In this document: positions 364-5,833 of the stretch, one piece after another | Layout: every line of letters starts with the position of its first letter | Position numbering within the stretch: position 1 is the first letter of the stretch | From: a virus | Strand: one strand, 5' to 3' | DNA length: 32,388 nucleotides | IMG/VR virus record: IMGVR_UViG_3300020473_000084 | Coordinates: 1-32,388 of that record | Notes under the pieces: model-generated | Databases searched by the model: none | What the model saw: only the letters and a program-made list of their open reading frames with translations | What the model was told of the DNA's origin: nothing | Position numbers and translations under genes: made by a program

Positions 364-3300
364 TATTCCTCCTTAATGTATTTTTTACCTGTTAATTGTT
401 CGATATCTCTGATCATTTCTTCCATGTTCACCCTTACAGTTTTGCCTGTTTTAGTGTTCCTTGAGAAGTATTCCCATTCACCTTTTTCGTTGTGCGGAGA
501 TATCTTAGTAACGTTACCCGCTTCGTCCTGAACATAAACTTCAGCACTTGCGGATTCGTCTTTGGCGTATATATGAGCACTGTTACTCACAGTTGATGGG
601 TCACCCGATTCGACTGCCATCCTCATAACACCGGTCAATCCAATACCAGTATTTGTTGTTTGAAATTTTTCACTATTATTGAAGTATAAAGTTTGTCCTG
701 AACCAGCATTGGTTTGAATACTAGTTTTAGTACCAGCGGCATTTTGAAAGTATGTTGTGCCTGATCGAATAAAAATACTACCTGTGCCTGCGTCATCGAT
801 ATAACTGTTACTACCATCATGATAAATTTCTAAGTCACCACCTGTACCTAGTTTTAATTTTACATCATCATTGAGTGTAACATCTGCTGTGAATGTTTTT
901 GCACCTGAAATTGTTTGTGCGTTAGTTGTTAACACAGACAACGAAGTTGACGCACCTGCAGGATTACGTAATAGTTGTACCCTGTATCCATTGACAGTGG
1001 TTGATCCACCGCTGGTGCTGGCCGCGGATACTGTGACTGTTGAACCACTTAATGCCGCTGTGAATGTTAATTGATCAGTGGTTTTTGTTGACACTATTGG
1101 ACCTGTTGCTACGTAGGCGTCTGTACCATCAGTAACAACAAACACTTCACTTATTGATGCCGCTGATTCTGAACTGTTGTTTCCAACAAATACATAGTGG
1201 GCACCGTTGTAAGAGTCTGTGCTGAATGTGTCTACTGCTGTTGCGGAACTTGATACAGATACTTGTCCAACTGTTTTTGTGTTATCACTGACAGCGTCTG
1301 ATTCTGAGTCACCCAACAATATTCTATACATTTTTACTGCTGTGTTTGCCTCATTACCCGATGCTCTAAGTCTAACGTTGCCACTGTCAATATCAGCAGT
1401 CAAAGTTAATAATGAATTACTGCCGGTAAAGATATCGTTATAAATTGTTATAAATGCATCTGTGCCGTTATGCACCACTAAACATTCTATATTTGTTAAT
1501 TCGGTTTTGGTTGAATTGTTGGCACTAATATAATATTTTGCACCTCTGTAAGTTGATGCCGACCAACTATCTAAATTTTCAACTGCACTGTCTACGTCTG
1601 AGTTTAAAACAAACGCAGTGTTACCTGATTCCGAAGCCGATGTGTTATCTCCTAAACCTATTCTGAAAAATTTTACAGAGTTTACATCTGCTGTTCCTGT
1701 ACCTCTTAATCTCACAGTTGATCCTGATAAGTCAGCATCAAATGCCACTTGAACATTAGATCCTGATCTCACTATACCGTGAGCACCCACAAACGCACTT
1801 GTATCATTATGCACTAAACTTACCGCCTGTGTGGCAACTTCGTCATTAATTTCATCTCTTGTGACCATTTGATAGAATGCACTGTCAAAAGATGATCTGT
1901 CAAAGGTATCAATATTGACAGCAGAAGTAGAAATACTTGTTGCTTCGCCTGTGGTTGTTCCACTTGCTTCTGTTGCCGTTGCCGTTTTGGCTATGTTTAC
2001 CCAACCCGTTGTGTCATATCTTTCATACGAATCTGTAGATGTGTTGTATCTTATCATACCAGTTGCGGCACTGCTAGGTCGATTGCCTGTGGTACCTTTT
2101 GGCAATGTTAGTGCGCCTGGCTCTAGTTTTAAGTTATTGTGCGTAATATATAAATCGTCTGATGTTTGTTGAGATCCTCTGTAAATGTTTGAAGATTCCA
2201 TTGCCAATCTAGCATAATACACAACATTGTTGGCTGGCGATCCCGCCATCCTTAATCTTGCTTTGCCTCCCGAAACATCTGCTGAGAATGTCGCCAAATC
2301 ATTTCCACCAGTTTCGGTAGAAACTATTGTTTCAGAAATACTTGCACCTGTACCGGCACTATTCACAACAAGGTTTATCTCACTGTTTTGATATTCAGTA
2401 TTATCACTGTTGCTGATATTGACAAAGTATCTTGCAGACTTGAATTTGAAAACATCAAACGAATCTACTGTTGTAACAGCCGAGTCTAAATCTCCAATTT
2501 TTCCATATGTAACATTGTCAAAGGTTCCAAGTATAGTTTTAGAACCTAGTCCTACTCTATATAATAAAGCAGTTGCAGTTGTGTTACTATCAGACAATGC
2601 TGATAATGTTACTGTTGATCCTGATATCGCGGCACTGAAAGTGTGTCTTATTCCGCTAGTGCTTGATACTTTTGCATAATCATTTAGGAAACAATCTGTA
2701 CCATCATGAACCAAACTCATTTCTGATATTTGATATTCACCTGCTGTACTATCTTTTGTTAGTATAATATATTTTACGCCTTGATAATCTGTTTTTGTAA
2801 ATTGATCTAATGTAGTTGCAGTAGAACCAATTGCTGTTGATGCCTTAATGATTTTTGTATTGGTTGCATCTTTTTGTTCGTTGTGGTCTCCAAGTGCAAC
2901 TCTATGACATCTCAAATTCGTGTGTGTGGATACGTTTGTTACTGCTGAAAGTTGAACTTTATTGCTTGATATTGCCGCTGTAAAATCACATATCCTAGTT
3001 GAATCTTCGTTGACATCGTATACTGATATGTAAGGTGTTGAATCATCGTGTATAATACTTACTTTTAGGTGACCAATCATGTTGAGGTCGGTATCTTCGA
3101 TTTCGATATCGTATATTGCACCTCTAAATTCTGCAATATCAAATTCGTCAATAACTTTTGATGTTGTACCTAATTTGAAAAAATTAAATATTTTAGTTGC
3201 ATGGTTATCGGTTCCTGTTCCGCCACCAGAGTCAGCGAACGATACGGTTCCTGCACCGTCTGTCATTAATACTTGCGTGTTACTTCCGTCTGCTGTTGGA

Positions 3301-5550: not shown

Positions 5551-5748
5551 CTACCAATTATTACTGTGCTTTTGCGAGATATGACCTAGAATTTTGCCTT
5601 TATTTTTTCCAGTTTTCACGGTGTAACCAGAAGTGCCGTTTCCGTTTATTTCAACAGCGGTTCTGCTGTTGAATAAAACACTTTGCTTTTTCTTATTCTT
5701 CTGAGTTGTGCTGTACTTTTTTAAAGTATAGTGATGTCTATTTGGCAT
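5551..5748 (-). CDS. 65-aa basic protein under glutamine-riboswitch control
   Basis: This is a small Lys/Arg/His-rich protein starting MPNRHHYTLKKYSTTQKNKK and ending in HSNNW. It has no signal peptide or membrane segment. The start is firm: AAGGAGGG lies 4 nt before the ATG. The leader is a recognisable glutamine riboswitch, and a late promoter ends right before it, so this gene is its own transcription unit controlled by glutamine. I do not recognise the family with certainty. The length (65 aa), basic composition and riboswitch suggest a comparison with cyanobacterial glutamine synthetase inactivating factors. A central stretch (KNKKKQSVLFNSRTAVEING) looks loosely like the IF7 segment I recall, but that is from memory and unverified. 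It could equally be one of the unassigned small proteins found downstream of this riboswitch class in marine sequences. Confidence 0.8.
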   Translation of the reverse strand: MPNRHHYTLKKYSTTQKNKKKQSVLFNSRTAVEINGNGTSGYTVKTGKNKGKILGHISQKHSNNW

Positions 5749-5752
5749 TTCA

Positions 5753-5760
5753 CCCTCCTT
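5753..5760 (-). promoter_or_regulatory. Ribosome binding site AAGGAGGG, target of the riboswitch
   Basis: This is a strong Shine-Dalgarno directly before the 65-aa gene. On the minus strand GGGTGAA, which overlaps it, is complementary (one G-U pair) to TTCATCC in the 5' strand of the riboswitch. Ligand-free RNA could therefore mask the site. This is inference from pairing only. Confidence 0.6.
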
Positions 5761-5774
5761 TTTACAGTTAGGTG

Positions 5775-5819
5775 CGTTCCTTCGGCATGGTGCCTACTTC
5801 CGTCCTTTTTGGATGAACG
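5775..5819 (-). promoter_or_regulatory. Glutamine riboswitch (glnA RNA motif)
   Basis: Read on the minus strand, P1 is CGTTC pairing with GAACG at the two ends. Then comes a short P2 (TCC, AAAAA loop, GGA), the conserved core CGGAAGTA, P3 (GGCA-CCA-TGCC), and the conserved GAAG before the 3' strand of P1. Order, spacing and invariant core match the glnA class of glutamine-sensing aptamers known from cyanobacteria and marine metagenomes. A late promoter (5826-5833) would start transcription at about 5820, exactly at the 5' edge of the aptamer. The controlled gene is the 65-aa protein. The 5' arm TTCATCC can alternatively pair with GGGTGAA at the Shine-Dalgarno, which suggests that glutamine switches translation on. 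Confidence 0.9.
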
Positions 5820-5825
5820 AAAAAA

Positions 5826-5833
5826 TATTTAGT
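5826..5833 (-). promoter_or_regulatory. Late promoter (ACTAAATA) for the riboswitch transcript
   Basis: The minus strand reads ACTAAATA, followed by T-rich sequence and then the riboswitch. The same octamer lies 8 nt before the plus-strand gene at 14411. T4 late transcription starts about 6 nt past this element, placing the start at the first bases of the aptamer. Confidence 0.55.

Follow-up and report, generated by a model that had tools for sequence, protein, structure and literature searches.

The window analysed here is the whole of the virus record IMGVR_UViG_3300020473_000084 (32,388 bases), and every element of the glutamine cassette that it carries lies on the minus strand; coordinates are given below in the direction of that strand. 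The virus encodes T4-like portal and major capsid proteins, as indicated by PHROG profile matches, and the nearest matches to its capsid protein come from large T4-like phages (73% with Sinorhizobium phage Phosso). No close DNA relatives of the window were found in phage records. The locus begins with an intrinsic terminator-like hairpin at 5869-5845, a 10-pair stem followed by a T-rich tail, which closes the upstream transcription unit. Next comes a TAAATA late promoter core at 5831-5826; its context, CTAAATAT, resembles the T4-type late promoter element TATAAATA, which stands at a fixed distance before the transcript. It is followed by a glutamine riboswitch aptamer (RF01739) at 5821-5771, an expression-platform hairpin at 5774-5751, the Shine-Dalgarno (SD) sequence AGGAGG at 5759-5754 and an ORF at 5748-5551, with its ATG at 5748, which codes for a basic protein of 65 aa (13 K/R, 1 D/E). 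The gene behind it, for a fibre-like virion protein (5456-363), is preceded by a TAAATA core at 5547-5542. Since there is a terminator just upstream and the next gene has a TAAATA core of its own, the transcription unit of the 65-aa gene looks, from its sequence, monocistronic.

The preliminary description of this DNA had proposed a complete phage-borne glutamine aptamer directly behind a late promoter, with a strong SD and the gene of a small basic protein downstream, and each of these elements was confirmed. The Infernal and Rfam check (cmscan at the gathering threshold) matched the aptamer to the full RF01739 model, positions 1-53, with 55.6 bits against a threshold of 35 and an E-value of 7.9e-10. 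The pairs were checked in all three stems: P1 (5819-5815/5779-5775), P2 (5813-5811/5805-5803) and P3 (5794-5791/5787-5784). The distance from the TAAATA core to the first P1 base, C5819, is 12 nt, and the transcript would start at about 5820-5819, at the first aptamer base or adjoining it. From the aptamer core to the ATG there are 25 nt on the same strand, with the SD in between. The downstream-peptide RNA RF01704 had no cmscan match in the window even at E-values up to 1. The window also contains a second cis-regulatory RNA, freshwater-2 (RF02980), at 17613-17528 on the minus strand (75.3 bits). It lies ~18 nt behind a TAAATA late promoter core (17636-17631) and extends as far as the beginning of a 136-aa ORF (17530-17120).

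The 65-aa protein belongs with the pelagiphage phrog_32989 proteins (profile match at residues 9-53, E-value 1.7e-8); we call it and its relatives family A. A single-sequence protein search of viral contigs returned no relatives because its patterns were specific to the window. An alignment of 24 family A members followed by a renewed search of the viral contigs gave 310 relatives, 80 of which were kept. Among the 77 loci with a readable ORF, a pattern search detected the aptamer within 130 nt in 72, and the number of homologues with an aptamer in this protein-first comparison rose to 75 once three aptamers with a long P3 were read by eye; the aptamer is absent from two loci (L205 and L209). 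In L196 and L197, where the aptamer occupies a stretch some 160-35 nt ahead of the family A start codon (4001), an insert of ~90 nt in P3 has an open frame of ~30 codons (MFNIYEKTILFFVCLYMCYVLYHMIVGTFT). In L172, with the aptamer some 110-35 nt ahead of the family A start codon (3998), P3 is a long hairpin of ~70 nt with a loop resembling a tRNA T-arm; ARAGORN finds no tRNA in this hairpin.

The median dN/dS in family A, ~0.26 over unsaturated pairs, corresponds to purifying selection and argues that the protein matters. The invariant part consists of R4 and the pattern 'V..N..GT.GY..K.G.NK'. The gene neighbours of family A vary from contig to contig. The idea, put forward earlier, of a virion gene under metabolite control stands as far as the aptamer and the late promoter are concerned, but the locus is rather a self-contained unit with neighbours that differ between phages.

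The arrangement is not limited to family A. When viral contigs were scanned for exact occurrences of the aptamer core, at least 120 loci were found, a count that is a lower bound and comes from partly redundant contigs. Among those listed, 116 loci could be assessed, and in 106 of them an ORF of 20-78 aa, preceded by an SD, opens 14-45 nt further on, compared to 1.9% for the same layout at random positions in the same contigs; no downstream ORF above 100 aa occurred among the aptamer loci listed. The downstream ORFs of the loci listed make up about eight unrelated families, with borders that rest on short sequences: a DUF4278-like family 'YRG', family A of the window, C ('YCR'), D ('..NPFYP'), E, F ('MNFKWDL..') and G (78 aa), besides singletons. 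Families C, D and G had no match when searched in phage isolates. At many of the C and D loci (L005, L021, L033, L049, L102 and others) the 3' end of a second aptamer is seen just upstream, in a tandem arrangement.

The late promoter accompanies the aptamer in a family-specific manner. TAAATA was found 10-16 nt before the aptamer at all distinct loci of families A (19/19), F (5/5) and G (4/4), while the background was 0.5%. At the same spacing it was present at five of the eight loci of family E; it does not accompany the aptamer in families C and D.

Immediately 3' of P1, the sequence GCACCU pairs with GGGUG(U) over the SD. In the window, C5774-U5770 pair with G5755-G5751, with inner pairs C5767-G5758 and U5766-A5759; the hairpin folds at -9.4 kcal/mol and covers the SD. 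We observed that the two arms covary across unrelated ORF families (GCACCU:GGGUGU, GCAUCU:AGAUGU and GCACUU:GAGUGU, and further GCACUU:AAGUGC, GCUCU:GGAGU and GCGCU:GGCGU). A MAFFT alignment of the platforms misaligned some of the 3' arms, therefore the pairing was judged from duplex energies, with permuted partners as the comparison. For 21 distinct platforms, hand-chosen as hairpin-type, a choice that favours the permutation result, the mean energy was -8.39 kcal/mol with the platform's own partner compared to -6.49 kcal/mol (sd 0.36) with permuted partners, and 0 of 20,000 permutations did as well. A family-wise test made without that choice agrees: for families A, C, D, F and G the own partners gave -7.2 to -9.1 kcal/mol and swapped partners -4.4 to -6.4 kcal/mol. 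The YRG and E loci produced no signal for the GCACCU-type hairpin in the family-wise test; most of them have another SD hairpin, ACUUUAC:GUAAAGG.

A different switching helix had been drawn in the preliminary description, between UUCAUCC in the aptamer (5817-5811) and GGGUGAA at the ribosome site (5755-5749). These two segments can indeed pair (duplex energy -9.3 kcal/mol), but the pairing is peculiar to the window. As a switching helix it is not supported: over 83 loci, 5405 of 20,000 permutations were equally good, i.e., shuffled partners match it.

On the host side, 80 genomes were drawn from the order to which a Pelagibacteraceae MAG belongs; RF01739 was detected in 39 of them, mostly in 2-8 copies and often in tandem, and was absent from the other 41. 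The aptamer loci of marine alphaproteobacteria precede amt, glnA, gltB and other genes, and SAR86 loci carry the aptamer as well. In cyanobacteria the aptamer precedes IF7-like and DUF4278 genes. Host transcripts of glnA, gltBD and amt rise when pelagiphages infect (PMC12753301), which makes glutamine a sensible signal.

We consider it probable that the locus in the window is a self-contained, glutamine-responsive cassette in which late promoter, aptamer and SD hairpin form a translational ON switch that operates late in infection. Transcription would begin from the T4-type late promoter, at the first base of the type I glutamine aptamer or right beside it. As long as glutamine is absent, GCACCU 3' of P1 would pair with GGGUG(U) over the SD, and translation would be blocked. 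With glutamine, which the window copy of the aptamer is expected to bind, the aptamer would claim the C beside P1 for a long-range pair within the aptamer and the SD hairpin would weaken, upon which the 65-aa protein would be made, late in infection. The level of glutamine would then decide the synthesis of this protein, as the preliminary description had also supposed. In the S. elongatus structure paper, by Ren et al. in 2015, a linchpin G-C pair reportedly caps P1 and a short helix below P1 is said to melt on binding, which fits an ON switch. A plain secondary-structure model of the window lets P1 and the SD hairpin coexist and abut (-18.5 kcal/mol). When the two bases beside P1 were held unpaired, so as to imitate the bound state, the cost was ~4.5 kcal/mol and a 3-bp remnant still covered part of the SD. 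Given this remnant, the model makes an OFF switch or weak switching possible, while the ON direction is favoured for the window cassette.

An OFF switch would work by P1, stabilised by glutamine, stacking on the SD hairpin, so that high glutamine would repress the gene. The coexistence of the two abutting helices in the model speaks for such an arrangement, and so does the presence of the same aptamer before amt, glnA and gltB in SAR11-type and other marine alphaproteobacteria, where shut-off by glutamine is expected. However, the host aptamer loci compared have longer, different linkers that lack the phage SD hairpin. The 5' arm of this hairpin is built from conserved aptamer nucleotides that immediately follow P1; moreover, in cyanobacteria, IF17 synthesis under the gifB switch is described as going up when glutamine is high (PMC7760959). 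On balance we find repression by glutamine unlikely. Far less credible still is that the aptamer regulates nothing and is carried along in degenerate form, the ORF being simply a late gene. The aptamers of some relatives do score below the Rfam cut-off, but the aptamer holds the same place in 75 of 77 homologues across divergent contigs and is accompanied by a covarying platform.

Riboswitches have been described as rare in phages (PMC9004378), phage-borne glutamine riboswitches are already known (PMC9004378, PMC9964418), and a 2020 survey of pelagimyophages found no riboswitch (PMC7029224); the glutamine case described best so far had been linked to a tmRNA. The window aptamer has in common with the type I glutamine riboswitch (glnA RNA, RF01739) the full-model match, the conserved core, P1-P3 and the location in a 5' leader; it differs in the phage late promoter ahead, the 65-aa ORF behind and the SD-sequestering hairpin directly 3' of P1. 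The downstream-peptide motif RF01704, a related glutamine-class RNA of cyanobacteria, likewise precedes ORFs of 17-100 aa (Weinberg 2010, PMC2864571), whereas the window aptamer belongs to another Rfam family (RF01739) and the isolate relatives of the window ORF family are SAR11 phages. The gifB riboswitch with IF17, and IF7, are likewise cases of a glutamine aptamer controlling a small protein; there, however, the proteins have no detectable homology to that of the window and the host is a cyanobacterium.

The marine T4-like phage Melnitz carries the same aptamer class at 46398-46446 (52.8 bits), and the glutamine riboswitch was assigned by its authors to tmRNA/ssrA (PMC9004378). There is overlap between the aptamer and the terminal part of the annotated tmRNA, and the annotated CDS at this place is on the opposite strand. 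We found in the Melnitz sequence (MZ577097) an unannotated 32-aa ORF (MTLYQQWCYLKAQKEYRRRQKILMYFRIRLKG) at 46469-46567, 25 nt after the aptamer core, with an SD and a GCACUU:GAGUGU hairpin. Judging from this layout, the 'riboswitch-controlled tmRNA' is more simply read as another copy of this cassette, placed ahead of a 32-aa ORF that was overlooked, and the ssrA assignment looks doubtful. In the isolated SAR11 phage Mosig the cassette stands directly before Mosig_00116, a family F gene, and S-PM2 has an aptamer scoring below the threshold ahead of the YRG gene S-PM2p190.

As to the role of the 65-aa protein, searches of Pfam, NCBIfam and PDB gave no match. Its AlphaFold model, a helix at residues 2-27 and a beta-hairpin, is too weak (mean pLDDT 68); a Foldseek search of viral models with it returned nothing at E-values up to 0.001, and the second match, above that value, was a podophage homologue of the protein. 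No homology to the GS inactivating factors IF7/IF17 emerged from profile comparison with the IF7 family, NF052599 (hhalign probability 1.0% for family A, no NCBIfam match). SAR11 podo- and siphophages have shorter family A homologues without the riboswitch in their late lysis/packaging region, which shows that the family A protein does not need glutamine control; the phrog_32989 podo- and siphophage homologues checked have neither the C-terminal '..H..KSTNNW' tail nor an RF01739 match. HTVC027P, too, has a family A-like ORF, though as a weak match. In HTVC019P (2471-3206) a family A gene is followed by phrog_20984 and then phrog_24646, and in HTVC104P (1501-2236) a family F gene is followed by the same two. 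In HTVC023P the family F gene is next but one to the endolysin. With both families occupying the same slot before phrog_20984 and phrog_24646, A and F, though unrelated, seem from this gene order to be interchangeable there. Both are also found under the riboswitch in T4-like relatives.

Most likely the 65-aa protein is not a virion component but a small accessory or regulatory protein of the late phase. Because the homologues that lack the riboswitch occupy a slot of the late lysis/packaging region that family F can fill as well, we make the tentative guess that it may adjust late timing, of lysis or packaging. A competing guess, which concerns the protein and leaves the switch as it is, would make the tiny proteins inhibitors of host nitrogen assimilation in the manner of IF7/IF17, closing a glutamine feedback loop in infection. 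The same aptamer stands before IF7-like genes in cyanobacteria, the phage proteins are of small size and in many cases basic, and the rise of host glnA, gltBD and amt transcripts in pelagiphage infection would suit such a loop. Nevertheless, hhalign probabilities against IF7 are 1.0% for family A, 0.1% for E and 0.2% for C, the Pfam, NCBIfam and PDB searches were empty, and the podophage homologues without the riboswitch lie near late packaging and lysis genes; an inhibitory role of this kind is improbable in our view.

Judged against the open-licence literature, the general cassette (aptamer, SD hairpin and tiny ORF, here together with a late promoter) appears to be new, and so does the re-reading of the Melnitz riboswitch. 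A broader proposal, to which we lend cautious and partial credence, is that aquatic phages repeatedly put unrelated tiny proteins under one cassette of glutamine aptamer and SD hairpin. It could act in T4-like phages as a late nitrogen checkpoint, and the proteins would be effectors able to stand in for one another, adjusting late timing or the flow of host nitrogen to the glutamine pool.

The cassette points to a common, overlooked route by which phages tie gene expression to the nitrogen state of the host. It looks like a widespread, uniform module before tiny genes that annotators can miss, and the covarying platform gives a direct prediction that could be tested with Pelagibacter phage Mosig and HTCC1062, a pair that can be cultured. 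This would help to show how phages that infect streamlined bacteria sense cell metabolism late in infection.
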